Below, piece after piece: positions 3,544 through 54,140 of a stretch of 58,780 bases of DNA. The notes below the pieces were generated by a model. The model was not told the DNA's origin. It made no database searches and worked only from the letters and a program-made list of their open reading frames with translations. Source of the stretch: Bacteroidales bacterium (GTDB lineage: Bacteria > Bacteroidota > Bacteroidia > Bacteroidales > UBA932); the NCBI GenBank assembly GCA_017617715.1, contig JAFZVQ010000014.1, forward strand, positions 1 through 58,780, given 5' to 3'. The translations under genes and the position numbers were made by a program. Within the stretch, counting starts at the first letter, position 1; each line of letters begins with the position of its first letter.

Positions 3544-5658
3544 ATGGGAATCAAGCATTTCATTGCCGTAGCGGCGGCCGCCCTGCTTGCCCTGGCGGCC
3601 TCTGCTGAAGGAGTATCCCCCAGGATAATAATCCCGCAAGTCAAATCCTACACCCTTTCCGAAGGCAGCATTGTTCTGGAAAAGGGCGCCGCTTTCAGCA
3701 TCTCGGCAACCGATGCAAAAGAAGACCTCTCTGGTTTCAAGGCGTATCTCGAAACCTGCGACTTGTCTCTCATTCCTGCCGCCAAGGGCGGTCCGAAGCC
3801 GGTAGTCCGGTTCAAGATAGGGCCGAAGGCTCTCAAAAATGCTCCCAAGGATGCTTATTCCATGGTCATTGGCCGTAAGGACATCAGCATCTGCGCAGCA
3901 GAAATCAGCGGCGCCTTCTATGCCGTGCAGTCCCTTATAAAGATGACGGCTGCCAGCCCCGGGCGCCGGCTCGCCTGTTGCAGGATCGACGACGCCCCGC
4001 GATTCTCCCACCGCGGACTGATGTTTGACGTGGTCCGCCATTTCCACGGGAAAGATTTTATTCTCAAGCAGTTGGACGCAATGGCCCTGCTTGGGATGAA
4101 CAAGCTGCACTTCCATCTCACCGACAATGAAGCATGGCGCCTCGATCTTGAATGTGCTCCTGAAATGGTCCGGAAGGCCGCTTTCGGTGACAGCAAATGG
4201 TTCAACACCATTTTTCCGGGGAGGCCCCTCACTCTCGCGGATGCCCCTGAAGGCTACGTCCCCGGCTCCGTCTATGACGACGGGGCCATCTATGGCGGTT
4301 ATTATTCCAAGGATGACATCAGGGAAATAATAGCCTATGCGGCTGCAAGGAATATTGATGTAATACCCGAAATAGAACTGCCCGGACACAATCTGGCCCT
4401 GCTTCATGTCCATCCGGAGTTTTTCTGTGACGGAGAGCACATGGTCCCTGATGTCTTCTGCGCCGGGAAGGAAGCTCCTTTCGTGTTTTTCGAAAAGGTG
4501 CTGGAAGAGGTGATGGATCTTTTTCCTTCCCGCTACATCCATATCGGCGGAGATGAGGCCTCGAAAGACAACTGGTCGGTCTGCAGCCGGTGCGCAGAAA
4601 GGATGCATTCAGAGGGTCTCAAGGATGTTTTCGAGCTCCAGAGCTATTGCATCAGACGCATGGAAAAGTTGATAAATGCGCACGGCAAGCGACTGATTGG
4701 CTGGGATGAGATACTGGAGGGCGGCCTGTCCGGGAACGCCACGGTGATGTCCTGGCGGGGCACGGCCGGCGGGGTGAAAGCTATCAGCATGGCGCACGAC
4801 GTCATCATGAGTCCGAATACTTATTACTACCTGGATTATGGTCAGGATGCTCCATACAAGGAGCCGCTTGCATTCAGGACCTACCTTCCGCTGGACGTTG
4901 TCTATGGCTATGAACCGGAAGCAGATATCGAGGCTTTGTACGGAGGGGAACTCTCCCAGGAAACACGGGCCAGGATTCTCGGAGTCCAGGGCAACCTGTG
5001 GTCGGAGTGCGTCGTCTCCGACAGCCATTTCGAATATATGCTCTATCCACGCGCTTTCGCCATTGCAGAGACCGGATGGTCGCCGAAGGGCTCAAAGGAT
5101 TATGAAACTTTCCGGGAAAATGCTATAATACTGTCCCGCATTTTCAATGAAAAAGGCATCACTACCTTCGACCTCACAGGCGAAGCCGGGGAAAGACGGG
5201 AAGCCAGGAACGAAATTAGCCGTATCACCCGTTCCGCAAAAGCGGTGATGCGCACCGGAAACGGCAAGGAGACGGATGCGTCCGTGCTGGTGGACGGCTA
5301 TCTCGGCGGATGGGCCCTCAAGGGGTCGGATTTATGGGTAAAAATACCCAAATCGGAGATAACCATCGATGTCGACCTCGGTTCGGCAATGGACATTCAT
5401 TACATCGGAGCTGAATTCGCAGACCACAATGCCAGGCGCTGTCGCGCACCGCAGGATACAGAATTCACCACCTCGGTGGATGGCATAAACTACGTCCCTG
5501 CGCAGGTCCCGCAACTGAGGATCGACGAAAGCAGCACGTCCTTTGCAATCCGCACCGCCGGCGGCACCGTCTCGACCCGCGCCCGATACATACGCCTTCG
5601 CTTCAACCTCGGCAGCGAGAAGGTCAACACCTATATCAGCGAGGTGATAGTCAATTAA
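3544..5658 (+). CDS. GH20 beta-N-acetylhexosaminidase with C-terminal discoidin-like domain
   Basis: A 704-residue secreted enzyme releasing terminal beta-linked GlcNAc or GalNAc. Signal peptide at 1-21. The GH20b-type N-terminal domain spans about 28-140 and the TIM barrel about 150-505. The barrel begins RFSHRGLMFDVVRHF and carries the diagnostic NKLHFHLTDNEAWRL and the catalytic Asp337-Glu338 pair in HIGGDEA. Family members use substrate-assisted catalysis. The C-terminal part (about 560-704) has the beta-sandwich pattern of an F5/8 type C (discoidin-like) carbohydrate-binding domain, ending YIRLRFNLGSEKVNTYISEVIVN. No consensus promoter is obvious in the 43-nt gap upstream, so co-transcription with the SGNH hydrolase is likely. 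Host glycans or peptidoglycan are possible substrates. Confidence 0.94.
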   Translation: MGIKHFIAVAAAALLALAASAEGVSPRIIIPQVKSYTLSEGSIVLEKGAAFSISATDAKEDLSGFKAYLETCDLSLIPAAKGGPKPVVRFKIGPKALKNAPKDAYSMVIGRKDISICAAEISGAFYAVQSLIKMTAASPGRRLACCRIDDAPRFSHRGLMFDVVRHFHGKDFILKQLDAMALLGMNKLHFHLTDNEAWRLDLECAPEMVRKAAFGDSKWFNTIFPGRPLTLADAPEGYVPGSVYDDGAIYGGYYSKDDIREIIAYAAARNIDVIPEIELPGHNLALLHVHPEFFCDGEHMVPDVFCAGKEAPFVFFEKVLEEVMDLFPSRYIHIGGDEASKDNWSVCSRCAERMHSEGLKDVFELQSYCIRRMEKLINAHGKRLIGWDEILEGGLSGNATVMSWRGTAGGVKAISMAHDVIMSPNTYYYLDYGQDAPYKEPLAFRTYLPLDVVYGYEPEADIEALYGGELSQETRARILGVQGNLWSECVVSDSHFEYMLYPRAFAIAETGWSPKGSKDYETFRENAIILSRIFNEKGITTFDLTGEAGERREARNEISRITRSAKAVMRTGNGKETDASVLVDGYLGGWALKGSDLWVKIPKSEITIDVDLGSAMDIHYIGAEFADHNARRCRAPQDTEFTTSVDGINYVPAQVPQLRIDESSTSFAIRTAGGTVSTRARYIRLRFNLGSEKVNTYISEVIVN

Positions 5659-5663
5659 GGGCT

Positions 5664-5698
5664 GTCATCCTGAGGAGTGCGAAGCACGACGAAGGATC
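5664..5698. repeat. dispersed intergenic repeat, copy 1
   Basis: A 35-bp element beginning GTCATCCTGAG with an internal short hairpin GTGC-GAA-GCAC and ending CGAAGGATC. A near-identical copy is at 37689-37723. It lies between the convergent GH20 and phosphodiesterase genes and is followed by a run of nine G (5699-5707). Function unknown. Confidence 0.75.
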
Positions 5699-5707
5699 GG
5701 GGGGGGG

Positions 5708-6574
5708 CTATTTCCGGACGGGGAGTTTCCCTTCGTCGATAAACCCGCAGGCGGCGCGGGGAATGTCGGTGCAGATGTAATCTGCCTCCAGATAGTAGGA
5801 CAGCATCATCTCGGCCTCCGTGCCGTTCGGCCAGAGGTTGATGACCATGCCGTCCTTGTGGGCCTTGCGCATGTCTTCCAGCGTTGTGCGGGCGCGGTGG
5901 CAGGCCATGCGCTTCGTGCCGATGTCGGCGGCGATCGCGCGCGTCTCCGCCGTGTTGCCCTTGGATGTGATAAACATGACCTCCACATCCGGATGGTGCT
6001 TCCTCAGATACTTGAGCACGCGGGTGTCGAATGAGGAGAAGATGTATGTGGATGCGTCAGGACGGGCTTTGGAGATGGAGGCATAGACGTCTTCCGCATA
6101 AATCGCGAGCACGTCTTCGGGATACAGGTCCTCGCGCGTGGTCTTCATTTCGAATTCGACATAGCAGCCGGGATATTTGCTGAAGAGCGCCAGGACTTCA
6201 TCCAGCGTGGGGATGGTGTTGCCTTTCCTGGTGCGAAGGGCGCGCACCTCGCTGAAAGTCATCTTCTCCAGGGTGCCCTCGGCATCGACCATGCGGGACA
6301 CTTCAAAGTCGTGCATGATCACGTATCTGCCGTCGGCGGTGCGGTGGATATCCAGTTCGAAACCGGTGATACCGGCCTGCAGGGCCGTCTCGAATGCGGG
6401 CAGGGTGTTCTCGTCCGCCTCGAAGCGCCCGCCCCTGTGCGCCACGAGGCGCACCTCGCGCTGCTCCTTTTCCTGCGCCCCCGCTTCCGCCGGGCTGATG
6501 AATACCGATAATACGCCAAGCGCAAGGACAATCAGTGCCCCTGCATGGCTCCTGTGTGTAAATAAGTTCAGCAT
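5708..6574 (-). CDS. secreted glycerophosphodiester phosphodiesterase
   Basis: Hydrolyses glycerophosphodiesters to sn-glycerol 3-phosphate and an alcohol. The open frame reaches 6772, but the only start giving a signal peptide is the ATG at 6574, just downstream of a TATATTTG box; the upstream extension is not coding-like. The 288-residue protein has a signal peptide at about 1-33, then the GDPD signature: His46-Arg-Gly-Gly, Glu55-Asn56-Thr, Glu73-Leu-Asp75 and His88-Asp. These are the metal-binding and catalytic residues of the PLC-like TIM-barrel fold. The end (YICTDIPRAA) matches the usual TDxP motif. It is a single-gene unit, but it lies near two loci full of other phosphodiesterases. 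Confidence 0.93.
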   Translation of the reverse strand: MLNLFTHRSHAGALIVLALGVLSVFISPAEAGAQEKEQREVRLVAHRGGRFEADENTLPAFETALQAGITGFELDIHRTADGRYVIMHDFEVSRMVDAEGTLEKMTFSEVRALRTRKGNTIPTLDEVLALFSKYPGCYVEFEMKTTREDLYPEDVLAIYAEDVYASISKARPDASTYIFSSFDTRVLKYLRKHHPDVEVMFITSKGNTAETRAIAADIGTKRMACHRARTTLEDMRKAHKDGMVINLWPNGTEAEMMLSYYLEADYICTDIPRAACGFIDEGKLPVRK

Positions 6575-6581
6575 AACTCTG

Positions 6582-6589
6582 CAAATATA
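6582..6589 (-). promoter_or_regulatory. -7 box (TATATTTG) abutting the phosphodiesterase start
   Basis: The minus strand reads TATATTTG with its last G only 7 nt before the ATG at 6574. If transcription starts about 5 nt past the box, the mRNA has almost no leader. Confidence 0.55.
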
Positions 6590-6680
6590 GAAGAAATGAT
6601 GCAAACAAAGGAAGAATAGTTGCAAAAATCCTCGGCAGTAATGGTGTCCTTTGCATATAAATATAGAACACGGACACACA

Positions 6681-6827
6681 ATGTACAAAGACTCATCAAA
6701 TTCAACGTATCGCACACCGCTCGCAGAAGTGGTTCCCATCTGCGCCGGGAGCATGCTTGCAGCATCTGACATGGTTGGTGTGAACGCCAGCCTTGAAGAC
6801 TATGAAGTCATTGATCTTTGCGAATAA
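6681..6827 (+). CDS. small peptide ORF A (48 aa), first of a tandem pair
   Basis: A 48-residue ORF, Y-R-T-P near the N-terminus, then a hydrophobic stretch ending MLAAS, then an acidic tail closing EDYEVIDLCE. I do not recognise a named family. It aligns with three other small ORFs of this window (6840, 27924, 54009): all have an aromatic residue shortly before a Pro, then 13-14 residues, then [A/C]-A-S, then an acidic, aromatic-containing end. It is not a classical signal peptide: the hydrophobic part is broken and lacks the Lys-rich start. Only 12 nt separate it from the next ORF of exactly the same length. Translation is supported by the conserved pattern, not by any match I can run. Confidence 0.6.
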   Translation: MYKDSSNSTYRTPLAEVVPICAGSMLAASDMVGVNASLEDYEVIDLCE

Positions 6828-6839
6828 AAACACTTGGGT

Positions 6840-6986
6840 ATGAATAAAAAAACTAATTCTCAATCCTTTTACAGCGCACCGCAGGTGAAGGTGACCTTCA
6901 TCCACGCTGACCTTATGTTCGCGGCATCCCAGACTCAATACGGAGCCTCACGCGAAAGCTATGATTCCATTGACTTTTTTGAATAA
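6840..6986 (+). CDS. small peptide ORF B (48 aa), paralogue of ORF A
   Basis: A 48-residue ORF starting MNKKTNSQ, with Y-S-A-P at 11-14, MFAAS at 26-30 and C-terminus SYDSIDFFE. It has the same length as ORF A. Shared positions include Pro then 13 residues then AAS, and the tail [D/S]Y[E/D]xIDxxE, which indicates tandem duplication followed by divergence. The stop codon is 18 nt before the ATG of the fimbrillin-like lipoprotein at 7005, so co-transcription and possibly translational coupling are likely. No function is known to me; candidates are a secreted or processed peptide, a regulator of the lipoprotein, or a substrate of an export system. Confidence 0.62.
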   Translation: MNKKTNSQSFYSAPQVKVTFIHADLMFAASQTQYGASRESYDSIDFFE

Positions 6987-7004
6987 TAAAAAACAACACC
7001 AAAT

Positions 7005-9614
7005 ATGAGAAAGTCAGCTATATTTGCATTGATTGCCATGGCGACCGCAACAGTCGCCTGCAACAAAGAGAATTTCGAGGAGCAGCCCGTTCTCGGAGAT
7101 TCCAACAAAATCGTATTCACGGCAGAGCTTCCCACCAGGACGGCCACGGCCAACGACCAGACAGTCACCTGGGTGGCCGGCGACGAAGTTAAGTTCGTCT
7201 GGGCAGGCGGCAGTGCAACTGCTACCGCGTCCGCGTCCGGAGCAAGCACCACTTTCAGCGTTGAGGTGGCTGACGGCATCACTGAACTTTATGCAGTGTA
7301 TCCTGCTTCTGCCGGTGGCAGCTACGACGAGGGCAATGTGAACGTCCACTTCAACGGCTCCCGCACAGACGGATCCTTCGCAGCAAACGACATCTGCGTC
7401 GCAAAGGCTGTCAAGAACGGCGACACCTGGAGCACAACGCTGGAATTCAAGAATGCGGCCTGCCTGCTCAAGGTCGGCGTATCCAGCAGTTCCGTGGACA
7501 AGATCCAGGTCTTCGCAGGGAACGGTGAAGCCATTGCAGGTTATCTCCCTATAAATATTGATGGGAGCGGGGCCCCGTCTCTCGGTGAAGTGCTCGTCAG
7601 CCCGAGCGACCACGTTACAATGACCGTCAGCGGTCCCGGAGACTATTATATCCCCATGCTTCCCGGCGTCACTCTCAGCAAGGGTTTCCAGGTGAAACTT
7701 TTTGAGGGAGAAAATCAGCTCACCCCCTTCTATTACAACGGTTCCTTTACCACCACCCGCGGCCAGATCGTGAAACTTGACAATCTGGAAGCCCATGCCG
7801 GCCAGTACTACGTTACCCCTTCGGGAGCAGGTTCCAAAGCCGGTCAGAGCTGGAGCCAGGCTATGGACATCGACAAATTCAAGGCTTTTGTCACCAATCA
7901 AGACAACCACTTCATCTTAAAGGGATCGACTTTCCATTTCTCGGCCGAAGAGTTCTCCTTCGGCGATGATTATCTGGTGCTGCATTACCCTGATCACAGC
8001 AAAGTCGCTTTCACATTGGAAGGAACCGTGACGGCCTCCGACACGACAGTTTTCGTTGGACGCACCAACACCAGCGACAGCAATAAGGCCGGCGTTCTAT
8101 GGCCGCAGGCCAACTCGAATATCACCGTCAAGAACGTCAAGTTCACCGGGACCAACGGCAAAGGCAATTCTGCCGCCATTCGTCTCAATAACGGCGCCGA
8201 AACGTTTACACTTGACCATTGCTATTTCCGTGACAACGAGACCGATGGCAACGGAGCGGCAATAGCTGTCTACAACAGCTGCGCCCTTACCGTAAAGAAT
8301 TGTTCTTTCTCCAACAATTCAGGCATTGGAGGAGCCCTGTTCTTAAATAGCGGATCTGCTACCGCTGTAATTGAAGACAGCGAGATTAAAAACAATACTT
8401 ACGGCGCCATACGTGCAGACGCGGCAAGTACAATCGAGATTACACGCACCAATTTCACCGGTAACGACGGCGTTAACTATAGTGGGCCTGCGGTCCGCTT
8501 TGGCGGAAGCCCCACAGTAACCATCACTGACTGCGACTTCGTAGGAAACCATTGTAATTCAGGAGCAGGTACTATTGCGGTGAGTTCCAGTACCGTCGAC
8601 CTCAACGTAATCGGCGGCAAGTTCGAAGGAAATCATGCGGACGGCACCACCAATGACGACTCCGCCGGCGCCGTTATCTACGATTGGGGTGGCAGCACCG
8701 TTACCTTCACGGATGTCCTTTTCAAGGAGAATTATAACAATGTGGGCACCAATACCCAATCGGGAGGAATCATCAGGTTGGGGAAGAACACTTGCGTGGC
8801 AAGATTCAATGGCTGCACTTTCGACGGCAATTACTCATACCGTTCCTATTCTGACAACCCTTCCAACGCTTCGCTGGCTGCCATAATCCAGAACCGCCAG
8901 GGAGGAGCCAAGTATTACTTTAACGCCTGTGAGTTCAAGCATAATTCCTCCGGTCTGGACAGCGAGCGCATAGGTGGCTTTTACGGAATGTTAGTCGCGG
9001 CATACAGTACTTGCACCATTGGAATGAACAACTGCTCTATCCACGACAACTACGGCCAGCGCAATCCCGAAGAACCTCAGACTACCTGGTTCCACCTCAG
9101 CAATACCTCAAACACTTTCATCCTCAGCAACAGTACCATCATCGGAGACGCCCAGCGCACTCCTCAGATGGGCGGAGCCGTGCACAAGGATCACTGGAGT
9201 GTGCTTAAACTCAACACAACAGGTAATTACTATCTCCTGAATGATATCATTTGTTCCAAATTTTCCGACGGTTGCGGCATCTGGTGCGGTGCAGGGAACA
9301 CTTCCATCAATGCCTATTATACCAAGATGAGTCCGGAAGGAGACGGCAGGGCCGTTTGGACCAATAATACCGGAGCTGGATTCAACTACTACTCCGCCTA
9401 CCTGGGAAGCTACGACGGAACTCACGTTTGGAACGGCACCTTCAGCGCCGGTACCAACAAGGATTCGTTCGCTGCGACTTCCGATGTCAACGCCCAGATT
9501 GAAGCTGCTGACGCCGGCTTCTACGCCTGGCTGAACAGCATAGGCGCCCTCGGCAAGGACATCAACGGCAACAACCGCGGCGCCACATCCTGGCCCGGCT
9601 GCTACCAGAACTAG
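7005..9614 (+). CDS. lipoprotein with fimbrillin-like N-domain and right-handed beta-helix
   Basis: An 869-residue surface-type lipoprotein. The lipobox TVAC places the lipidated Cys at 19, followed by NKENFEE, an acidic/Lys-rich context typical of surface-exported Bacteroidetes lipoproteins. Residues about 30-265 resemble the fimbrillin-type domain (IVFTAELPTRTAT, then TWVAGDEVKF, later a YYIPMLPG strand and a GQIVKLDNL end). From about 330 to 780 the repeated pattern of TVKNCSFSNNSG, VTITDCDFVGNHC and ARFNGCTFDGNYS is that of parallel beta-helix repeats with Asn ladders. The C-terminus (DINGNNRG then GCYQN) resembles the choice-of-anchor Q ending. No catalytic lyase residues can be assigned. 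Probable role: adhesion or glycan binding. Two small peptide ORFs precede it, and a perfect terminator follows. Confidence 0.82.
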   Translation: MRKSAIFALIAMATATVACNKENFEEQPVLGDSNKIVFTAELPTRTATANDQTVTWVAGDEVKFVWAGGSATATASASGASTTFSVEVADGITELYAVYPASAGGSYDEGNVNVHFNGSRTDGSFAANDICVAKAVKNGDTWSTTLEFKNAACLLKVGVSSSSVDKIQVFAGNGEAIAGYLPINIDGSGAPSLGEVLVSPSDHVTMTVSGPGDYYIPMLPGVTLSKGFQVKLFEGENQLTPFYYNGSFTTTRGQIVKLDNLEAHAGQYYVTPSGAGSKAGQSWSQAMDIDKFKAFVTNQDNHFILKGSTFHFSAEEFSFGDDYLVLHYPDHSKVAFTLEGTVTASDTTVFVGRTNTSDSNKAGVLWPQANSNITVKNVKFTGTNGKGNSAAIRLNNGAETFTLDHCYFRDNETDGNGAAIAVYNSCALTVKNCSFSNNSGIGGALFLNSGSATAVIEDSEIKNNTYGAIRADAASTIEITRTNFTGNDGVNYSGPAVRFGGSPTVTITDCDFVGNHCNSGAGTIAVSSSTVDLNVIGGKFEGNHADGTTNDDSAGAVIYDWGGSTVTFTDVLFKENYNNVGTNTQSGGIIRLGKNTCVARFNGCTFDGNYSYRSYSDNPSNASLAAIIQNRQGGAKYYFNACEFKHNSSGLDSERIGGFYGMLVAAYSTCTIGMNNCSIHDNYGQRNPEEPQTTWFHLSNTSNTFILSNSTIIGDAQRTPQMGGAVHKDHWSVLKLNTTGNYYLLNDIICSKFSDGCGIWCGAGNTSINAYYTKMSPEGDGRAVWTNNTGAGFNYYSAYLGSYDGTHVWNGTFSAGTNKDSFAATSDVNAQIEAADAGFYAWLNSIGALGKDINGNNRGATSWPGCYQN
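9547..9611 (+). repeat. 65-bp direct repeat, copy 1 (3' end of beta-helix gene)
   Basis: This stretch encodes the last residues of the beta-helix lipoprotein and recurs at 11196-11260 with a single mismatch (GCCACATCC versus GCCACCTCC). The two copies bracket 1,584 bp containing the HTH-YhcG nuclease gene. Confidence 0.9.
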
Positions 9615-9634
9615 CCTCCGGCAACGCACCTAAG

Positions 9635-9670
9635 AAAAACGGCCCGTGGCATAATGCCCGGGCCGTTTTT
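9635..9670. terminator. bidirectional intrinsic terminator
   Basis: A 12-bp perfect stem, AAAAACGGCCCG paired with CGGGCCGTTTTT, with an inner GGC/GCC extension and a small loop. A/T tracts on both outer sides let it serve both the + strand lipoprotein gene and the - strand nuclease gene, whose TGA begins at its edge. Confidence 0.9.
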
Positions 9671-11142
9671 CAATTTTCTCCAGTTTGTTTTTCTTCTTTG
9701 TACCTTCTAAAATCCTCTTCCGTGATATTCTCCAGCATGTACTTGCGGATATCATCCTCGGAGGGTAACTGCAAACGGTATTTGCTGACGAAGATGTTCT
9801 GCGAAAGCCCCTCTATTGAGTACTTGACGGTGGTTTCACCATAGTCGGTGCAAAGAAGAATGCCGATGGGGGGATTGTCATCCTCCTGCATTACCTCGTG
9901 CTTGTAGTAGTTCATATAGAGGTTCATCTGCGAAGCGTACTCGTGGCGGAAGCGGTCAATCTTCAGGTCTATAATGACGTGACATTTCAAGATGCGGTGA
10001 TAGAAAATGAGGTCGGCCTTGAAATAGTCTTGATCTACAAGAATGCGCTTCTGGCGATACTCGAAACAAAAACCGCGTCCCATCTCCAGGAGGAACCGTT
10101 GCAGATTGTTGAGAATAGCTGTTTCCAGGTGGGTTTCCGTATTGTCTTCATATGGCCTGACTCCCAGAAACTCCAGTGTGACAGGATTATGAATAATCTC
10201 CTTCGGAGTTATCTGCTGCGCATTCTTGGCAGTAAGCCTTTGGAGAGCTTTTTTATCCTTCGACATACCCATGCGTTCATAATAGAGGGAAGAGACCTGT
10301 CGGTCGAGTTCTTTTTGTGTCCAACAGCCGCGAATTGTCTCCTGCTCGTAAAAGGCACGTTTCAATGGATCATTAATCGTAGCTAAATACGATAATATAG
10401 TATAGTTCAGCCGGTAGAATAGCCTTTCCGGTGGTGTGCGCCATTCTTCCAATTCGGCTGTTTTTGACTGCCGAATTATTTCTTGTTTTTGGGCGGGGTC
10501 TTCAAATTCGGCGGTTGAAAACAGCCGAATTGGGAACCGCTCGTCATTCTCCAGCCATAAACGGTTGGTTTCTAAAAACTTGACAATTACAGAGCCAAGT
10601 GACGGGTATACTTTATATACGTGTCGATAATCACGTAACCGGCGAAGATTGAAGCCTCTTTGATTCAATCTTTCAGATAATCGATCCAGTAGCTTCTCCC
10701 CATATTTAGCCCGGTCTTCACCGTGCTGTTCAAACTCGACAATGTAATACCCGACCAGCCAGTTTCGGGCAGTCAGTGAAAGATTGACAGCATGCGCAGC
10801 CTGAGCCTGCAGAGCATCCTGAATGAGGTTGATACGCCCCACCAAAGAATCAAAGGTCAGGTTTTCAGAACAGCTTTGCAATGCCTCATTGTCATCTTCA
10901 TGCGGCACAATTGTCATTTCTTTCAAGTCCGGCTCTTCAACGTAACCCACAAGCATCTCAAACGGCACTCCAAGCACATCTGAGGCCTTGTGGATGGTCT
11001 CCAGGTTCTTGGACTTGAACAGCACCTTCACATTCTGCTTCCGGATGCCCATCCGTCTGGCGAATTCGCTCTTGCTCATCCCGATCCGCTCCAGCAGCGC
11101 CTCCCCTTTTGCTTCAAAATAAATCTGATTCATAGTTCCCAT
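9670..11142 (-). CDS. HTH (XRE-like) - YhcG/DUF1016 PD-(D/E)xK nuclease fusion
   Basis: A DNA-binding N-terminus is fused to a YhcG-type nuclease. The helix-turn-helix (about 10-65: IGMSKSEFARRMGIRKQNVKVLF, then IHKASDVLGVPFEMLVGYVE) is Cro/C1-like. The DUF1016 N-terminal domain follows (ARNWLVGYYIVEFEQ, then KLLDRLSERLNQRGF). The C-terminal nuclease has ADLIFYHRILKCHVIIDLK, with the catalytic Asp and the Asp-x-Lys pair about 15 residues apart. YhcG proteins occur as accessory or defence-associated nucleases; the substrate is unknown. Two ATGs (11142 and 11133) are possible just after a TACCTTTG box at 11149-11156; the TTG at 11151 lies inside that box and is rejected. The gene is more AT-rich than its neighbours and bracketed by a 65-bp direct repeat, both consistent with acquisition. 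Confidence 0.88.
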   Translation of the reverse strand: MGTMNQIYFEAKGEALLERIGMSKSEFARRMGIRKQNVKVLFKSKNLETIHKASDVLGVPFEMLVGYVEEPDLKEMTIVPHEDDNEALQSCSENLTFDSLVGRINLIQDALQAQAAHAVNLSLTARNWLVGYYIVEFEQHGEDRAKYGEKLLDRLSERLNQRGFNLRRLRDYRHVYKVYPSLGSVIVKFLETNRLWLENDERFPIRLFSTAEFEDPAQKQEIIRQSKTAELEEWRTPPERLFYRLNYTILSYLATINDPLKRAFYEQETIRGCWTQKELDRQVSSLYYERMGMSKDKKALQRLTAKNAQQITPKEIIHNPVTLEFLGVRPYEDNTETHLETAILNNLQRFLLEMGRGFCFEYRQKRILVDQDYFKADLIFYHRILKCHVIIDLKIDRFRHEYASQMNLYMNYYKHEVMQEDDNPPIGILLCTDYGETTVKYSIEGLSQNIFVSKYRLQLPSEDDIRKYMLENITEEDFRRYKEEKQTGEN

Positions 11143-11148
11143 TTTTTG

Positions 11149-11156
11149 CAAAGGTA
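11149..11156 (-). promoter_or_regulatory. -7 box (TACCTTTG) for the HTH-YhcG gene
   Basis: The minus strand reads TACCTTTG, 6 nt before the first ATG (11142) and 15 nt before the second (11133). A nearly leaderless transcript is implied for the first start. Confidence 0.55.
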
Positions 11157-11195
11157 ATACATAAATATTACTTTTGCAAGATTAAACCATAATTC

Positions 11196-11260
11196 CCCTC
11201 GGCAAGGACATCAACGGCAACAACCGCGGCGCCACCTCCTGGCCCGGCTGCTACCAGAAC
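11196..11260 (+). repeat. 65-bp direct repeat, copy 2 (remnant of lipoprotein 3' end)
   Basis: Matches 9547-9611 in 64 of 65 bases. Here the stop codon TAG of the lipoprotein has become CAG, and no gene body precedes it, so it is a non-coding remnant of a gene end. It arose either by a duplication around an inserted gene or as the leftover of a lost paralogue. Confidence 0.9.
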
Positions 11261-11291
11261 CAGTCTGAAATAAACACGAATGAATACAGAT

Positions 11292-11343
11292 TTAGTAAGC
11301 ACTCAGTTACTAAACAATTACTTACTAACTTGTTTCTTACTAA
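11292..11343 (+). promoter_or_regulatory. four TTACTAA-type iterons at exact 15-bp spacing
   Basis: TTAGTAA at 11292, then TTACTAA at 11307, 11322 and 11337: four heptamers with exactly 15-bp phasing. The first is the reverse complement of the other three. The array runs directly into the -7 box at 11353, and the -33 TTG lies between the last two heptamers. It looks like a cooperative operator for a repressor or other DNA-binding protein acting on the ATPase gene promoter. Confidence 0.6.
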
Positions 11344-11360
11344 ATAAATGCTTATATTTG
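11330..11360 (+). promoter_or_regulatory. promoter of the AAA ATPase gene (TTG-N20-TATATTTG)
   Basis: TTG at 11330-11332 is separated by 20 bp from TATATTTG at 11353-11360, close to the Bacteroidetes consensus. The ATG follows at 11384, giving a leader of about 19 nt. The promoter is interleaved with the 15-bp heptamer array. Confidence 0.65.
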
Positions 11361-11383
11361 CGAAAGAATAACATTAATGCGCA

Positions 11384-12499
11384 ATGGATCAAGTATTTAC
11401 TTTCGGCAAGCCGGTTGATAATGAGATGTTTACTGACAGGGAGGCGGAGTCGGTCAGGCTTAAGGCAAACTTTGAGAGTGGAATCAACACATTTATTATT
11501 TCGCCAAGAAGATGGGGTAAGACTTCATTGGTAAAAAAAGTAATCAAAGAATCCGACAAGAATGGTGTAATCTATGTATTTGCAGATGTATTCAAAACAA
11601 AAACCCCATACGAGTTTTGCGAAACGCTTGGGAATGCCATCCTGAAGCAAACTTCTTCCGCTTTTGAGGAACTGGTTTCAAATGCGCAGAAACTTTTAGG
11701 GAGGATTCATGTGGGAGTTAATCTGTCGCCCGACCAGGCAAATCCCCTAAAACTGCAATTTGGCATAGAGGAGGATCAAAAAACAATAGAGGAGATTCTT
11801 ACGCTTCCCCAACGGATTGCAGAAAAGAAGAAGACAACTATTGTCGTGTGCATTGATGAATTCCAGCAGATTGCGGATTACGATGACAGCCTCACCTTTC
11901 AGAAAGAACTGAGAACCATATGGCAACACCAAAGTAACGTGTCTTATTGTCTGTTTGGAAGTAAGCGTCATATGATGGAGGGCTTGTTCGATGACGAGAC
12001 AAAACCTTTTTACAAATTCGGTGATATCTTATACTTGAAAAGAATTCCGCTCTCTTACTGGATAGCCTACATTTCCAAACGATTCTCTACAGCCGGAAAG
12101 ACTATTACCGATGAACAGATCGAAAGAATATGCACGACTGTTGATTATCATTCTTCATACGTTCAGCAATTGAGCTGGTACGTATATCTGTTTTCTGACA
12201 AAATAGTAACTGAAGAAGATATCGATAAAGGCATAAAAGAGCTGATTGACCAGAATACTGCGTTGTTTGAAAGTCGGACAGAAGGTCTTTCTCCTCTCCA
12301 GATGAGAATGTTGCTGGCGGTGTCTGAAGGGATATACGATGGTTTTTCTTCCTCGGGTGTAATCAAAAAGTATAAACTGGGATCATCTGCTGCTGCAATT
12401 GCCACCAAAAAAGCACTCCTGGAGAAAGGACTGGTATTTAATGAAGATAAAAGGATTCAACTGTCAGATCCAGTTCTCGGACTGTGGATGAAGTTATGA
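11384..12499 (+). CDS. archaeal-type AAA ATPase (ATPase_2/COG1672-like)
   Basis: A 371-residue cytoplasmic P-loop protein. Walker A is SPRRWGKTSL (Lys46) and Walker B is TIVVCIDEFQ (Asp158-Glu159), followed by a sensor-like segment (YCLFGSKRHMM). The C-terminal part carries a winged-helix-like region (LSPLQMRMLLAV, then SSGVIKKYKLGSSAAAIATKKALLEKGLV). This order is typical of the prokaryotic ATPase_2 family (STAND-like), often present in several genomic copies and of unknown function; a signalling or defence role is sometimes proposed. No nuclease domain is fused to it. The gene is clearly more AT-rich than the PUL genes that follow and has an elaborate promoter with four phased heptamers, which suggests horizontal acquisition and dedicated control. 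Confidence 0.86.
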   Translation: MDQVFTFGKPVDNEMFTDREAESVRLKANFESGINTFIISPRRWGKTSLVKKVIKESDKNGVIYVFADVFKTKTPYEFCETLGNAILKQTSSAFEELVSNAQKLLGRIHVGVNLSPDQANPLKLQFGIEEDQKTIEEILTLPQRIAEKKKTTIVVCIDEFQQIADYDDSLTFQKELRTIWQHQSNVSYCLFGSKRHMMEGLFDDETKPFYKFGDILYLKRIPLSYWIAYISKRFSTAGKTITDEQIERICTTVDYHSSYVQQLSWYVYLFSDKIVTEEDIDKGIKELIDQNTALFESRTEGLSPLQMRMLLAVSEGIYDGFSSSGVIKKYKLGSSAAAIATKKALLEKGLVFNEDKRIQLSDPVLGLWMKL

Positions 12500-12563
12500 T
12501 GGGAAAGGCGAGATTGTTGCAACTAAAGGCATTATCGTTCTAACTGTCAGTTCCATCCGGGCG

Positions 12564-12571
12564 TATTTTTG
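12564..12571 (+). promoter_or_regulatory. -7 box (TATTTTTG) of PUL-A first gene
   Basis: TATTTTTG ends 5 nt before the ATG at 12577, implying a leaderless transcript for the EEP-GH27 gene and the genes after it. Confidence 0.55.
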
Positions 12572-12576
12572 CATTT

Positions 12577-14880
12577 ATGAAAGCGTTATTGTCTCTATTG
12601 CTGCTTCTGCCGTGGTCACTCTTCGCCCAAGATGAAGACCGCCTGACAGTCGCGTCCTTCAACGTCCGTTTCCTTGACGACAACCGTCCGGAGTACGACT
12701 ATAAGTTCGGCGGACAGCCCTGGAGCGTCCGGAGGCCGGCCGTGAAGGCATTTTTCCTTCAGAACGACATCGATGTGGCCGGGCTTCAGGAGGTGCGCCG
12801 CACGCAGGCGGCCGACCTTGAGGAAGACCTCGGCGACGAATGGTTCATCTATTGCCCGGGGCGCCTGAGCGGCGGCAGGATGGTGCGCACCTCCGACGAA
12901 TCCACTGGCGTAATGTATCGGAAGTCCCGATTCAAGCTCTTGGACCACGGGTGCTTCTGGCTGAGCGACACCCCCGCCGGCACCGCATCGCTCCGCAAGG
13001 GGCAGAATTATCCCATCATCACCTCCTGGCTCCACCTGGAAGATAAAAAAGGCGAACAGCTTTGGTTTTTCTCGGCCCACATAAGCTGGTCCGTGGATGA
13101 GAATCCGGAGTTGCCGGACCAGGAAGTCGAAACGCTCCTGTCCGAGATGGAAAAACTGACCGGTCTGAACCGGGCCGATTTCAGGACAGCTCCAATATTT
13201 CTCGTGGGAGACTTGAACAATTCTCCGGAAAAGTCGGCCATCCAGACCCTTAAAGGCCGGTTCCGGGACGCCCGCACCAGCTGCCCGGAAACAGAATCCA
13301 CCGAAAGGAAGACTTTCCACAACTGGGGGAAGGAAAAAGGCTCCGGCATCATTGACTACATCTTCTATGGGACCGGAAAGCCCCTGGAATACATAGTAGA
13401 CAACACCAGCTACGCTCCGGAAGTCAAATACCTCTCCGACCATTATCCCATACTCCTGCGGCTCTCCCGCACACCGGACAAGTATTGCCTCACCCCCCAG
13501 GCACCAGCCAGGCCGCGGTACAACGGCCCTGCAGTGCTTGGGGCCCGTCCAGGCCGCCCTATCTATTTCCGCCTGCCCTTCTCCGGGCAGCGGCCCATGA
13601 AGTTCAGCGCCTGCCGTCTTCCCAAGGGGCTTAAGCTCGACCGCAGCAGCGGAGTGGTGAGCGGCAGCGTCGATAAGGCCGGAGACTATACCATCACCTG
13701 GAAGGCACAGAACAAAGCCGGGTGCGGCAAGGGAAAGATGGTCCTCAAGATAGGAGACACCATCGCCCTGACTCCTCCCATGGGCTGGAACAGCTGGAAT
13801 TGCTGGGGACTGGAAGTTTCTCAGGAAAAGGTTCAGGAATCGGCCCGGGCGCTTATTTCAAGCGGGCTGGCAGATTACGGATACAGTTATATCAACATAG
13901 ACGATGCCTGGCAGGCCTCCGAGCGCAGCGCCGACGGCACGCTCCTACCGAACGACAGGTTCCAGGACATAGCCGCCCTTGGGGACTGGCTTCACTCAAA
14001 CGGCCTTAAGCTTGGCATTTATTCCTCTCCCGGAGACCGCACCTGCGGAGGATATCTCGGTTCCCTGGGACATGAGCGGCAGGATGCCAATACCTGGAAC
14101 TCCTGGGGCGTGGATTACCTGAAATACGACCTCTGCGGCTACCGGTCGCTCCTTAAGGAAATGCCGACGGTAGGGAAAGAAGAGCACATGAAGCCGTATC
14201 TTCTCATGAAAGAAGCGCTTCTGCAGCAGCCAAGGGATATCGTCTATTCCATCTGCCAATATGGCCTCGAAGACGTCTGGACCTGGGGAGAAGAAGCCGG
14301 CGGCAACCTCTGGCGTACTACGGGAGACCTGTGGGACAAATGGGAACGTGTAGTCCGCATCGGCTTCGTCAAGCAGCGTCCTGCCGTATCATATTCAGGC
14401 CCCGGGCATTGGAACGACCCCGACATGCTCGTAATAGGCAAGGTTGGCTGGGGCGAGGGACTTCGCGATAGCAGGCTCAGCGCCGACGAGCAGTATTCCC
14501 ACGTCTCGCAGTGGGCCCTCCTTGCCGCCCCGCTTATGATCGGCGGAGACCTTTCCTGCGTGGATGAATTCACGCTTAACCTACTCTGTAACAACGAGGT
14601 AATTGCTGTCGACCAGGACCCTCTGGGCAAGCAGGCCGACTGCCTTTGGGAAGACGAAACGATTCAAATCTGGGGGCGTCCCCTGTCGGACGGATCCTGC
14701 GCCGCCGGCATATTCAACCTGGGAGAACGCGCGGTTGAAACCGACATTCCGGAGATGCTGTCAAAGGCAGGATATCCGAATGCCCGCGCCTGTCGGGACC
14801 TGTGGCGGCAGGAAGACTGTCCGGATCATGTCTGCATACCGTCACATGGCGTAATTCTGGTGAAGTATTATGCTGAATAA
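12577..14880 (+). CDS. EEP phosphodiesterase - Ig-like linker - GH27 alpha-galactosidase fusion
   Basis: A 767-residue secreted protein (signal peptide MKALLSLLLLLPWSLFA). Residues about 22-300 form an endonuclease/exonuclease/phosphatase domain with all canonical motifs: SFNVRF, GLQEVRR, SAHISW, GDLNNS, IIDYIFY and LSDHYP. A putative Ig domain follows (about 315-395). A GH27 barrel runs from TPPMGWNSWNCWG (about 400), with nucleophile Asp518 in KYDLCGY, acid/base Asp584 in WRTTGDLWDKW, and PGHWNDPDML. GH27 enzymes remove alpha-galactose (or alpha-GalNAc). One polypeptide thus carries a glycosidase and a phosphoester-cleaving fold, suggesting a phosphorylated, alpha-galactosylated substrate; this is inference. 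It overlaps the regulator gene at 14870 by 11 nt. Confidence 0.92.
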   Translation: MKALLSLLLLLPWSLFAQDEDRLTVASFNVRFLDDNRPEYDYKFGGQPWSVRRPAVKAFFLQNDIDVAGLQEVRRTQAADLEEDLGDEWFIYCPGRLSGGRMVRTSDESTGVMYRKSRFKLLDHGCFWLSDTPAGTASLRKGQNYPIITSWLHLEDKKGEQLWFFSAHISWSVDENPELPDQEVETLLSEMEKLTGLNRADFRTAPIFLVGDLNNSPEKSAIQTLKGRFRDARTSCPETESTERKTFHNWGKEKGSGIIDYIFYGTGKPLEYIVDNTSYAPEVKYLSDHYPILLRLSRTPDKYCLTPQAPARPRYNGPAVLGARPGRPIYFRLPFSGQRPMKFSACRLPKGLKLDRSSGVVSGSVDKAGDYTITWKAQNKAGCGKGKMVLKIGDTIALTPPMGWNSWNCWGLEVSQEKVQESARALISSGLADYGYSYINIDDAWQASERSADGTLLPNDRFQDIAALGDWLHSNGLKLGIYSSPGDRTCGGYLGSLGHERQDANTWNSWGVDYLKYDLCGYRSLLKEMPTVGKEEHMKPYLLMKEALLQQPRDIVYSICQYGLEDVWTWGEEAGGNLWRTTGDLWDKWERVVRIGFVKQRPAVSYSGPGHWNDPDMLVIGKVGWGEGLRDSRLSADEQYSHVSQWALLAAPLMIGGDLSCVDEFTLNLLCNNEVIAVDQDPLGKQADCLWEDETIQIWGRPLSDGSCAAGIFNLGERAVETDIPEMLSKAGYPNARACRDLWRQEDCPDHVCIPSHGVILVKYYAE

Positions 14881-25340: not shown

Positions 25341-25367
25341 GTCATTTTGAGCGAAGTCGAAAAATCT
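25341..25367. repeat. dispersed intergenic repeat (GTCATTTTGAGCGAAG type)
   Basis: GTCATTTTGAGCGAAGTCGAAAAATC is a variant of the element at 35811-35836 (read on the other strand). It fills most of the 39-nt gap between the SusD gene and the next ORF. Confidence 0.6.
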
Positions 25368-25373
25368 AAAAGC

Positions 25374-27917
25374 ATGAAAAAATATATAAATCTCCTGTTC
25401 CTGCTTCTCCTGCTGCCCTCCTGTTACAAGCAGCAGCAATTGGACTACAGCAAATGGTACACCGTCGAGGTGGATGATGAAGACCCGCTCCCTTCCGAGG
25501 AAGTAAAGGGCCTCATGATAATGTCTTCCAACGTACGTTATTACTCGGCCCGGAACAAGGCGGACGATCCTGACGTCGGCGACCGCGACTGGGAAGTGCG
25601 CAAGAAAGGCTACTTTAAGATGGTGAACACCATGAAGCCTATGGTAATCGGTCTCCAGGAAGCCGAAATGAATCAGGTTTCAGACATTGTCGCCAACTGC
25701 AAAGGGTACGCCTATGTAGGCGTCGGCCGCAACGACGGATCACAGAAGGGTGAATCGACCTCGATCCTGTACAAGACGGATGAAATCTCGCTGGAAGACT
25801 GGGGTACGGTATGGCTGTCGCCCACGCCCAATGTAGTCGGAAGCTATTTCCCGGAAATGACAGACGGACAATACGGGCAAAGCCGCACCGCAACCTGGGC
25901 CGTACTCACCGCCAAGGAAAGCGGGCGCCGGTTCTTCTACATCAATACACACTTCAGCCTGTATGAGGCATCCCAGCCCAAGGAAGTACAGGTCATATTG
26001 AATACCGTAAAGGAAAAATGCCCCGCCGGGCTTCCGACCGTCCTTTCGGCAGACTGGAACCTCGAAGAGACCGACCCTATACTGGCGCCTATATTGGGAC
26101 AATACTCCAGCGCCAGGCAGACTGCTCCTCTCACGGACAACATCGAAACTTTCCACTGGTGGGGTAGTCAGAGCACGATTTCCAAGCATCAGCACCTGGA
26201 CCACATCTTCTGGTCCGGATTCGAAAAGTGCCTCCGTTTCCGCACCCTCAATATGAAATGGGAAAAACTGTGGATATCCGACCATCATCCGGTATATGCA
26301 ATCTTCCAGTTCAAGACCGGCTCCACCGAAAAGCAAAAACCTGTTGCAGCCTTCGATATTCCCGCGAATCCCAAGATGGACGAAATCATCAGGTTTACGG
26401 ACAAATCCACGTCGGAAGACGGCATCGAGGTATGGGAATGGAACATCGGCGGCATCGTTTCCTCAGCACAGAATCCCGAGGTGATGTTCAACACCTATGG
26501 AGACGACATCCCGGTAAGCCTCACGGTTACGGACCATTACGGCCAGAAGGCGTCTGCATCCAAGACTTTCTCCGTCGCCCTCTCGGAAGGACACGACCTC
26601 ACCATAGAGTGGAGCAAGCTCTATGACGAAACCACGGACGGGAAAGGCACCGCAGTGGCAGACTGGACGGCTCCAGCAGTCACTCCTGCAGGAGATAAGA
26701 TTTATGTGGCTTCCTCCGGCTATCATCTCGTCGGATTCAATCCCGACGGCAGCATCTTCGGCTCCTACGACATCGGAAAACGTGAACCGTGCATCACCGA
26801 CCGCGACATCCAGACACCAACACCTTCCATCGACTCCCAGGGCAATGTGTACATTCCCGTGCAATACGGCTACAGCGAAAGCGGCCACGGCGGCCTGTAC
26901 TCCATCAGGCCCGACCTGTCCGGCGAAAACTGGTACCACGACACCGGAAACACATCGCAGTACCGCAATACGATTCCTACCATAGTGGGAGACTATGTCG
27001 CAGTGGTCCTGACGAACTGCGGAAACGACCTGACCAGGAACGCCGCCGTTTTCAGGCGCTCCAATGGGTCGTTGGTACAGGTACTTGAGTGTGACAAGGG
27101 CTCCTGGGGCGGCATGGCTGCGGGATACAAGGGAGAACTCATTTATTCGACCAACAGGGGCGGCACCAAGCAGGGACGCGAGCCCAGCACCGAAACCAGT
27201 GGTGGATATCACGTAGCAGTCGTGGACGGCGCCCTGGGCAACTGGAAGACCTCCGCCAACAGCGACTCCGGCCGCAAGACCAACCTCCTCGGCATGCGCC
27301 ACACCGACGGCAACGGCTACCTGGCCAAAGCGGGCCAGCCTGCTGTGGGCAGCGACCATTGCGTCTATGTCTGCGCCACCAGCGACAACGAGAATATGAT
27401 TTGCGCCAAGTACAATCTGGACAATTATGTGTTCGATTCGGCGCCGACGCCTCTTTGGAAGGTCGAACTGGAGACCCACTCCACCAGCGGCGTCCTCGGT
27501 CTTGGCTGCGTGCTCGATGCCGACGGCAACGCCTACTTCCGCGCCGCGGAGAAGGTATTCCGCCTGAACTCAAAGACCGGCGACAAGGGCTGGGTTTACA
27601 ATACGGAAGGCAACTACAACACCGGAGTCCCGGCCATCGACGCCCTGGGCTATGTGTATGTGGTCGACTACGGCGGAAACAAGCTGCTCAAGCTCTCTTC
27701 CGCGGACGGCAAACTCATTTCCTCTTTGGAACTTGAGAACCCCAGGACCAGCCCCACGATCGGGCCTGACGGAACCATCTACGTGACCGGCAGCTCATCC
27801 CAGGGTGCCATTCTCTACAAGATCAAATGCCAGAAAACGACAGCCCCCGGCCCGAACTGGTCGCAGCTCGGAGGCAATCCACAGAAGACTTGCACGCCCC
27901 CCGGATTCAACTTATAA
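25374..27917 (+). CDS. EEP - PKD - beta-propeller surface lipoprotein
   Basis: An 847-residue lipoprotein; start at the ATG giving MKKYINLLFLLLLLPSC (Cys17), because the TTG at 25347 lies in an intergenic repeat. Residues about 45-320 form an EEP domain: MSSNVRYYSARNK, IGLQEAEM, INTHFSLYE, SADWNLEE, HLDHIFW and ISDHHPVYA, so the catalytic Asn, Glu, His, Asp/Asn and Asp/His are all present. A PKD domain follows (about 330-410: FTDKSTSEDGIEVWEWNIGG). A PQQ-like propeller (about 415-825) then repeats the pattern SGYHLVGFNPDGSIFGSYD and GNVYIPVQYG. The tail NWSQLGGNPQKT also ends its paralogue at 28072. Likely a surface phosphodiesterase with binding domains; the substrate is unknown. Confidence 0.88.
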   Translation: MKKYINLLFLLLLLPSCYKQQQLDYSKWYTVEVDDEDPLPSEEVKGLMIMSSNVRYYSARNKADDPDVGDRDWEVRKKGYFKMVNTMKPMVIGLQEAEMNQVSDIVANCKGYAYVGVGRNDGSQKGESTSILYKTDEISLEDWGTVWLSPTPNVVGSYFPEMTDGQYGQSRTATWAVLTAKESGRRFFYINTHFSLYEASQPKEVQVILNTVKEKCPAGLPTVLSADWNLEETDPILAPILGQYSSARQTAPLTDNIETFHWWGSQSTISKHQHLDHIFWSGFEKCLRFRTLNMKWEKLWISDHHPVYAIFQFKTGSTEKQKPVAAFDIPANPKMDEIIRFTDKSTSEDGIEVWEWNIGGIVSSAQNPEVMFNTYGDDIPVSLTVTDHYGQKASASKTFSVALSEGHDLTIEWSKLYDETTDGKGTAVADWTAPAVTPAGDKIYVASSGYHLVGFNPDGSIFGSYDIGKREPCITDRDIQTPTPSIDSQGNVYIPVQYGYSESGHGGLYSIRPDLSGENWYHDTGNTSQYRNTIPTIVGDYVAVVLTNCGNDLTRNAAVFRRSNGSLVQVLECDKGSWGGMAAGYKGELIYSTNRGGTKQGREPSTETSGGYHVAVVDGALGNWKTSANSDSGRKTNLLGMRHTDGNGYLAKAGQPAVGSDHCVYVCATSDNENMICAKYNLDNYVFDSAPTPLWKVELETHSTSGVLGLGCVLDADGNAYFRAAEKVFRLNSKTGDKGWVYNTEGNYNTGVPAIDALGYVYVVDYGGNKLLKLSSADGKLISSLELENPRTSPTIGPDGTIYVTGSSSQGAILYKIKCQKTTAPGPNWSQLGGNPQKTCTPPGFNL

Positions 27918-27923
27918 CGAATT

Positions 27924-28058
27924 ATGAAAAAAGAATATATATCCCCTCTCACCAACCTGGTTCTGAATATCAGAAACAGCCGCCCTCTGTGCGCCAGCAC
28001 CGAGTCGTTGACTCCCCTCGAAGAAAGTGACGACCTGAGCGGCCTGGATTGGAATTAA
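27924..28058 (+). CDS. small peptide ORF C (44 aa) inside PUL-A
   Basis: A 44-residue ORF, MKKEYISPLTNL, with PLCAS at 21-25 and an acidic C-terminus SDDLSGLDWN. It shares with the ORFs at 6681, 6840 and 54009 an aromatic residue then Pro, a 13-14 residue spacer, [A/C]-A-S, and an acidic aromatic tail. It starts 6 nt after the first EEP-propeller gene and stops 13 nt before the second, which has a fimbrillin-like N-domain; its presence correlates with that domain, since the first EEP-propeller gene lacks both. No known function. It is too small for ordinary gene callers, and no homologue search was possible here. Confidence 0.6.
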   Translation: MKKEYISPLTNLVLNIRNSRPLCASTESLTPLEESDDLSGLDWN

Positions 28059-54008: not shown

Positions 54009-54140
54009 ATGACCAAAACAACTATTAGCTACGCCTCGCCTAGATGCGAATATGATGAATCCTCCTTGGTGGACTTATTATGTGCCAGCCCGACGGAGGG
54101 TGGACTTGAAGGTATTACTGAAGAAGATTGGGTTGTTTAA
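54009..54140 (+). CDS. small peptide ORF D (43 aa)
   Basis: A 43-residue ORF, MTKTTISYASPRCEYDES, with LLCAS at 23-27 and tail GITEEDWVV. It follows the same pattern as the ORFs at 6681, 6840 and 27924: aromatic residue then Pro, 13-14 residues, [A/C]-A-S, acidic tail with an aromatic residue. It has its own strong promoter and a 67-nt leader and stops 12 nt before a fimbrillin-like lipoprotein gene. It is the first gene of its transcript, so it is probably translated in its own right. Function unknown. Confidence 0.65.
   Translation: MTKTTISYASPRCEYDESSLVDLLCASPTEGGLEGITEEDWVV

Follow-up and report, generated by a model that had tools for sequence, protein, structure and literature searches.

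Among described systems, the small genes analyzed here are most readily compared with those for the linear polyphosphorylated peptides (LPP) of Bacillota, which, according to the main text of the paper describing them, are made by lppA-K-B-S-D-N clusters (PMC13381572, Nat Commun 2026). These encode a precursor (LppA), an HprK kinase (LppK), an RRE protein (LppB), an SpI-like enzyme with S29/H68/D93 (LppS), an MsbA-like transporter (LppD), and an NTP transferase (LppN). As presented in the same text, the precursor consensus is YxxPxVLxHQxIxFETxxS, cleavage occurs before A-Q-S, S3 is polyphosphorylated, and the Y-16A and P-13A mutants show weaker RRE binding (PMC13381572). That text confines LPP to Bacillota and describes their role as unknown, and a word search of it returned no term beginning with "Bacteroid-". 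Lasso peptides are the second point of reference: in the available text of PMC8498205 an HprK-like kinase, a nucleotidyltransferase, and an ABC transporter co-occur with them, and their leaders carry a YxxP motif, as mentioned in the main text of PMC13381572. A limited literature search found no published description of the small ORFs reported below or of an LPP system in Bacteroidota.

We analyzed a 58,780-nt stretch of a Bacteroidales genome (the window; contig JAFZVQ010000014.1), in which an earlier note had proposed that four small ORFs form a family tied to fimbrillin-like lipoproteins. The host is a gut bacterium with close relatives from the rumen, and its assembly (G000) comprises 2.3 Mb in 86 contigs and is 76.6% complete. 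The places and lengths of the four ORFs, the 12-nt gap within the tandem pair, and the distance from Pro to [A/C]-A-S (13, 13, 14, and 13 residues) all proved to be as described (Table 1). When aligned, the ORFs share Y-x-x-P, then 13 (once 14) residues, [A/C]-A-S, and an acidic aromatic tail. The next genes begin 18, 13, and 12 nt past the last small ORF of their locus, within the 12-18 nt noted before, and their products are lipoproteins as judged by eye from the lipobox. Their description as fimbrillin-like is upheld by a profile of the N-domain (see below), while the match of the 28072 gene to PF13149 (Mfa_like_1) stays below the cut-off (24.1 bits vs 27). Pfam and NCBIfam hold no model for the peptides (the four window peptides and 23 members gave just stray sub-threshold matches), in agreement with the remark that no described family was known for them. 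At the gathering threshold, Rfam returned nothing but the tRNA.

Table 1. Small ORFs of the window, their predicted parts, and the adjacent lipoprotein genes. The leader/core division is inferred from the motif register and from LPP cleavage as published in the main text of PMC13381572.
Feature	Position	Strand	Basis or content
Small ORF, 48 aa, first of tandem pair	6681..6827	+	held-out HMM
Predicted leader of 6681 ORF	6681-6758		YRTP motif
Predicted core of 6681 ORF	6759-6824		AASDMV...DLCE
Small ORF, 48 aa, second of tandem pair	6840..6986	+	held-out HMM
Predicted leader of 6840 ORF	6840-6920		YSAP
Predicted core of 6840 ORF	6921-6983		AASQTQ...DFFE
Partner lipoprotein, 869 aa	7005..9614	+	fimbrillin-like N-domain, then right-handed beta-helix (PF13229)
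Small ORF, 44 aa	27924..28058	+	held-out HMM
Predicted leader of 27924 ORF	27924-27989		YISP
Predicted core of 27924 ORF	27990-28055		CASTES...LDWN
Partner lipoprotein, 1088 aa	28072..31338	+	fimbrillin-like N-domain (PF13149 below cut-off) and further domains
Small ORF, 43 aa	54009..54140	+	held-out HMM
Predicted leader of 54009 ORF	54009-54080		YASP
Predicted core of 54009 ORF	54081-54137		CASPTEGGLEGITEEDWVV
Partner lipoprotein, 1032 aa	54153..57251	+	fimbrillin-like N-domain, Big_2, FISUMP/Fib_succ_major-type modules

Further domains of the 28072 lipoprotein are an endonuclease/exonuclease/phosphatase domain, a PKD-like domain (below cut-off), and PQQ-type repeats. By eye, the phosphatase and PQQ-repeat parts are alike in the neighbouring lipoprotein encoded at 25347-27917; of the two, only 28072-31338 has a small ORF ahead of it and a fimbrillin-like N-domain. 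Three named MAG records, including one with the label water-buffalo rumen, contain copies of the 54009 peptide with one residue changed.

Chance ORFs would likewise be small and have no Pfam or NCBIfam model. To this reading we oppose a held-out HMM, trained on 87 homologues drawn from 19 other genomes and run against the 337 small ORFs of the window (28-80 aa, six frames). The four ORFs scored at E values from 4e-13 to 3e-5 and the next ORF at 0.73, with no reversed-sequence control below 0.94; the model thus picks exactly the four that had been thought to exceed chance, although one 98%-identical orthologue contained in it inflates the score of the 54009 peptide. Within the whole of G000 it recovered 42 of 42 known members and, at E<=1, none of 683 other small ORFs; because the member sets came from iterated searches, this result shows separation, not independent discovery. 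Substitution patterns likewise bear out the family. Raw pS was 0.582 and raw pN 0.211 over 24 homologous pairs, which are non-independent and reuse sequences, with 0.548/0.269 in the first half and 0.614/0.158 in the tail (the split being set by a regular expression). Pairs were taken at peptide identity >50%, a choice that lowers pN; yet synonymous sites are near saturation in several pairs, and the L015/L091 pair shows pS 0.90 vs pN 0.20. The small ORFs look like translated peptides under purifying selection that is stronger in the tail, and in tandem pairs the distal member is conserved from one genome to another. With the held-out test and selection against it, the reading as chance ORFs is refuted as far as sequence allows, and we assign it a negligible probability.

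A profile of the four window peptides gave 23 matches at E<=10 in all of G000, and a profile of these 23 led to 42 members. Once the loci were oriented, 39 members turned out to have as their immediate downstream neighbour a lipoprotein gene whose product carries a fimbrillin-like N-domain, and two were the first of tandem pairs (the 6681 ORF and one on contig C15). One copy (C76:62469-62594) sits 11 nt behind a fimbrillin-like gene and has no same-strand ORF of >=80 aa behind it, up to the contig end. Behind this small ORF without a downstream lipoprotein there is a resolvase-like gene (by eye; L064, 63055-63699, minus strand), and a rearrangement could have removed a partner.

The N-domain profile built from the 39 partners (A7) gave 116 matches in G000 at E<=0.01, 93 of them at E<=1.3e-10. 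When the regions upstream of 54 fimbrillin-like genes not yet covered were fetched and searched, a further 17 small ORFs came up (E<=0.06), and each of them stops in the interval from 22 nt ahead of the domain match to 4 nt into it; the match ranked after them, on the same strand, had an E value of 0.59. The total for G000 is at least 59 small ORFs. They lie directly upstream in 56 of the 93 fimbrillin-like genes and behind the gene in one, and none was found for the other 36. PF13149 itself matches eight times in G000, five times above its cut-off, with one of these five beside a small ORF. Among the 39 partner genes one passes that cut-off (contig C17, 37.2 bits), and the HMM gave no small ORF in the regions fetched around the start of each of the four strongest PF13149 matches, which lie in frames of 367-380 aa.

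Two side observations concern the lipoproteins themselves. The 93 copies of the fimbrillin-like N-domain, mostly in large frames (C53, C57, C78, and others), amount to a very large expansion of surface lipoproteins. At two fimbrillin-like genes of contig C17 (L197 and L210), the ORFs stopping directly before them are, by position, the C-termini of preceding fimbrillin-like genes; they terminate in SGDLEDISYDPIN and TGGDIDDYTFDPII, endings that resemble small-ORF tails.

The family proposed in the earlier note extends well outside this genome: homologues occur in 19 of 24 other genomes of the genus at E<=0.01 (profile A3, 117 matches) and, counting G000 itself, in 18 of the 294 order genomes scanned. 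In 16 genomes of other families profile A3 itself found no match. We examined 87 of the 117 same-genus matches (28 + 60 rows, one duplicate removed). A gene starts within -35 to +40 nt of 81 copies, and 77 of these 81 adjacent products match the N-domain profile derived from G000 alone (its 39 own partners, E<=1e-5), the exceptions being L082, L133, L181, and L182. Five of the six non-adjacent copies precede another small ORF of a fimbrillin-like locus; the sixth is L184. The link to fimbrillin-like genes therefore recurs, with 39 of 42 copies in the own genome and 77 of 87 in the rest of the genus, plus the five that precede another small ORF. Six loci could be found in named records, all of them Bacteroidales or Bacteroidia MAGs and one labelled water-buffalo rumen.

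Outside the genus the picture is mixed. Small ORFs precede fimbrillin-like lipoproteins in the same pattern in other families (G079, G131, G133, G223, G228, G245, G266, and G302), and 17 of 17 scored partners match the N-domain at E<=1.1e-9, a set chosen because a lipoprotein follows and including the same-genus loci L130-L132 and L358. Other copies do not precede a lipoprotein (for example L104, L106, L363, L367, and L374). For f107, another family, 15 copies were read (9 of 14 in G131 and 6 of 6 in G300): in 13 the feature ahead is a same-strand ORF, at a distance of -4 to 35 nt; L112 shares its reading frame with the ORF before it, and L100 lies ahead of a fimbrillin-like lipoprotein. Fourteen of the 15 lie behind a large protein gene or run on from it in frame, which qualifies the claimed tie to fimbrillin-like genes, and eight have no same-strand ORF of >=150 aa starting within 900 nt behind them.

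For the proteins preceding f107 copies a T9SS-like sorting tail was considered and is not claimed, as no such domain was found in six of them with Pfam and NCBIfam. At L104 (G257:C10:151947-155024) a small-ORF-like start continues in frame into lipoprotein-like sequence (a frame of 370 aa), either a natural fusion or an internal start.

Gene order bears on whether the small ORFs are cis-acting leader peptides, whose translation would control or couple that of the lipoprotein and whose product would have no further role. The distance to the gene is 12 or 13 nt in 32 of 128 cases and mostly between -35 and +40 nt, and conservation is higher in the C-terminal half, which is closest to where the lipoprotein gene begins, as such coupling would lead one to expect. 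However, the leader half is conserved at the amino-acid level too, the C76:62469 copy lies downstream of its fimbrillin-like gene, f107 copies are placed behind or in frame with large protein genes in 14 of 15 cases, and a copy in G043 heads a maturation operon (see below). The downstream copies, the operon-head copies, and the distal tandem members conserved between genomes lower the odds of cis-acting leaders, which we judge rather unlikely.

Two halves can be told apart in the peptides. Tyr stands three residues before Pro in 163 of the 164 sequences with [YFWH]xxP (two of 129 same-genus sequences without this motif were left out of the Pro-registered counts), and 163 of 164 have a Ser somewhere within P+15 to P+18. 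This Ser is at P+16 in 110 of 127 same-genus sequences and 29 of 37 from other genera, and [C/A] occupies P+14 in 113 of 127 and 29 of 37, respectively. Glu is favoured at P+3, P+6, and P+10, and [L/I] at P+13. A double-glycine leader and a lipobox were considered for the peptides and dropped by eye.

The halves also differ in how they relate to the neighbouring gene. Over the 39 pairs of G000, the core (P+14 on) correlates with the first 200 residues of the lipoprotein at a Mantel r of 0.55 (p 0.0005; partial 0.52) and the leader at 0.22 (p 0.0005; partial 0.11, p 0.02). For the 118 pairs of the genus, the core gives 0.42 (partial 0.42) and the leader 0.04 (partial -0.03). Nearest-neighbour agreement is modest, at 16/39 for the core and 7/39 for the leader in G000 and 37/118 and 27/118 for the whole genus. 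The leader is thus common to the copies and the predicted core covaries with the neighbouring lipoprotein, although this pattern could also reflect, or be helped by, physical closeness or linkage between the tail and the lipoprotein gene. Small chaperones or pilots that serve the neighbouring surface protein in the cytosol might covary with it as well, and acidic small proteins encoded beside exported partners would suit such a task; but this role leaves unexplained both the common YxxP...S leader and the operons with an RRE, a kinase, a peptidase, and an ABC transporter, and we consider it improbable.

Since YxxP resembles the motif of lasso leaders, G000 was searched for PqqD-type RREs. There are two loci, L249 (contig C64) and L248 (contig C27), with PF05402 above cut-off, and in each the gene run is HprK-like, signal-peptidase-like, PqqD, ABC; no precursor small ORF was found beside either. 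Apparent operons in other genomes join the two parts. In G043 the order on one strand is small ORF-HprK-S26-PqqD-NTP_transf_5-ABC, with the small ORF at the head; in G245 it is small ORF-fimbrillin-like lipoprotein-HprK-S26-PqqD-NTP_transf_5-ABC, and in G133 small ORF-fimbrillin-like lipoprotein-ABC-S26-PqqD-HprK. Small ORFs also lie within 6 kb of a PqqD gene in G266, G195, and G021 and 41 nt behind one in G112. Altogether, 6 of the 39 RRE regions read have a small ORF nearby (2/20 + 4/22, three regions in both).

The signal-peptidase-like enzyme has invariant SM, HR, and GDGN motifs (S35, H73, and D88 in six proteins); it has no Pfam match and reaches 21.6 bits against sigpep_I_arch (cut-off 51.85). 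In the kinase, an SGTGKST P-loop, H-[A/S]-S, and NDD are invariant in six proteins, and a match to Hpr_kinase_C, below cut-off, was obtained for one of the scanned proteins only. The ABC transporter contains PF00664 and PF00005 above cut-off with no peptidase domain listed, and MsbA is among its top NCBIfam models, below cut-off. NTP_transf_5 is above cut-off in G043 and G245; when three NTP transferase queries were run by tblastn against L248, L249, and the G133 locus L330, nothing matched at E<=1e-3. The closest RREs in the PDB are lasso RREs only (TfuB1, E 1e-4; TbiB1, E 0.09).

Ordinary lasso peptide precursors therefore had to be weighed. Their YxxP leader and the kinase, nucleotidyltransferase, and ABC transporter that occur with them, as given in the available texts of PMC8498205 and PMC13381572, have counterparts here, and NCBIfam lasso PqqD models hit one of the two G000 PqqD proteins with sub-cut-off scores. 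However, the B2 leader peptidase PF13471 is above cut-off in none of 27 small-ORF-positive genomes (18 of them >=90% complete with <=5% contamination, nine falling short) and sub-threshold in four, and no macrolactam cyclase (Asn-synthetase-like) was seen by eye at L248, L249, L280, L281, L282, or L287. Membership in the lasso peptides was rejected because of the missing B2 peptidase, and the probability we leave to it is very small.

A different PqqD locus, L285 (G013:C1:479000-498000), has at 5613-13026 a row of genes (by eye) for two asparagine-synthetase-like proteins and for HprK-like, sulfotransferase-like, PqqD, and YcaO-like proteins; it is perhaps another RiPP cluster.

Co-occurrence was assessed by two scans of the 294 order genomes, one for the small ORF (profile A11, E<=0.003; the 18 genomes given above) and one for the RRE (profile A9, E<=1e-5; 48 genomes). 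The RRE is present in 15 of the 18 small-ORF genomes vs 33 of 276 others (Fisher 1.1e-10, genome relatedness uncorrected). When genomes that gave rows to either model are removed, the RRE is found in 9 of 11 (p 6e-7, again uncorrected for relatedness and with G041, of the same genus, kept). The three small-ORF-positive genomes without an RRE match are G300, G267, and G183: the match in G267, inside a 169-aa ORF, is probably false, and in G183, which is 99% complete, a small-ORF-like frame precedes a fimbrillin-like gene (E 1e-24). Conversely, 33 RRE-positive genomes gave no small ORF. With a general PqqD model (51-genome scan), 16 of 20 same-genus genomes with a small-ORF match (own included) and 4 of 5 without one were positive, that is, there is no contrast within the genus; 12 of 13 same-genus genomes with three or more small-ORF matches were positive, and in G021, at first without a small-ORF match, a more sensitive model picks up a small ORF close to its cluster. 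Outside the genus the figures are 6 of 7 vs 9 of 16. Profile A9 derives from RREs of small-ORF-positive genomes, and the general PqqD family separates genomes outside the genus only weakly; what the small ORFs associate with is therefore this type of RRE.

The data establish a family, its linkage, selection on it, shared maturation operons, order-wide co-occurrence, and covariation of core and lipoprotein. Probably the small ORFs encode the precursor peptides of an LPP-type, RiPP-like system that depends on an RRE, with the precursors scattered over the genome beside fimbrillin-like lipoproteins. The second complete gene set at L248 and the complete run in G133 support this reading; it is weakened by the lack of a contrast inside the genus and by how few of the RRE regions read have a small ORF, and some 59 dispersed precursors in one genome would be unusual, which we counted against it. 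Of the guesses made in the earlier note, processed or secreted peptides are best supported, with a chaperone-like partner and an expression leader retained as the rivals discussed above; the observation was correct and understated, and the leader motif and the maturation system had been missed.

As precursors, the small ORFs would be handled as follows. The N-terminal half would serve as leader, its Y-x-x-P and the hydrophobic/Glu stretch that follows binding the PqqD-type RRE. The HprK-like kinase would phosphorylate the near-invariant Ser, usually 16 residues after Pro, and the signal-peptidase-like enzyme would cut the leader off at a predicted site next to [C/A]-x-S. The NTP_transf_5 enzyme, where present, may decorate the core further, and the MsbA-like ABC transporter would export the acidic core of about 19-22 residues. 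Outside the cytoplasm the core, matched to the adjacent surface lipoprotein, might then act with it; we put the chance that matured peptide and neighbouring lipoprotein work together at about even. A more far-reaching proposal is that dozens of peptides with similar leaders and divergent cores are matured by one or two RRE/kinase/peptidase/exporter sets, in a genome-wide system serving the cell surface, and that each peptide is fitted to a single fimbrillin-like lipoprotein; it is tentative and in our estimate rather doubtful. Equally speculative is one example of such a fit within a matched surface pair, in which the peptide would dock into, or complete, the fimbrillin-like fold of the lipoprotein.

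If this is true, the LPP family would be extended to another phylum, with its gene set and leader logic present in the order of the window genome, and the adjacent surface lipoprotein would be a concrete functional partner, the first biological one, for LPP-type peptides. The proposal accounts for a large set of small genes that are unmodelled in Pfam and NCBIfam, gives a simple search handle, and makes the system testable with a handful of genes in laboratory hosts.

Compared with the Mfa/Fim fimbrillins of Bacteroidales (PF13149), the partner proteins share a fimbrillin-like N-domain that is divergent, and differ in being mostly large with variable C-terminal parts. Phosphorylated lasso peptides of the paeninodin and pseudomycoidin type share, in the available text of PMC8498205, the RRE, kinase, nucleotidyltransferase, ABC transporter, and [Y/W]xxP leader, but here there is a signal-peptidase-like enzyme, with no B2 peptidase above cut-off in 27 genomes and no macrolactam cyclase seen by eye in the clusters read. 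The system differs from LPP in its occurrence in Bacteroidota, outside the range stated in the main text of the LPP paper, and in its precursors: they are for the most part scattered, number at least 59 in one 2.3-Mb assembly, and are paired with fimbrillin-like lipoproteins. The Pro-to-Ser distance is mostly 16 (P+16) rather than 15 (P+15), the residue before the presumed cut is mostly Leu/Ile rather than Thr, and the two G000 loci have no NTP transferase by tblastn. Common to both are a discrete PqqD-type RRE, an HprK-like kinase, an MsbA-like ABC transporter, a signal-peptidase-like enzyme with Ser, His, and Asp (of predicted activity), and, in G043 and G245, an NTP transferase. Both also have a short precursor with a YxxP leader, a conserved Ser at the would-be core position 3, and a variable C-terminus, and the LPP core start A-Q-S is fitted by [C/A]-x-S. 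Given that LPP are described as restricted to Bacillota, the small-ORF system, not a proven member of LPP, looks like an LPP-like Bacteroidota variant with precursors dispersed beside adhesin-like surface proteins.
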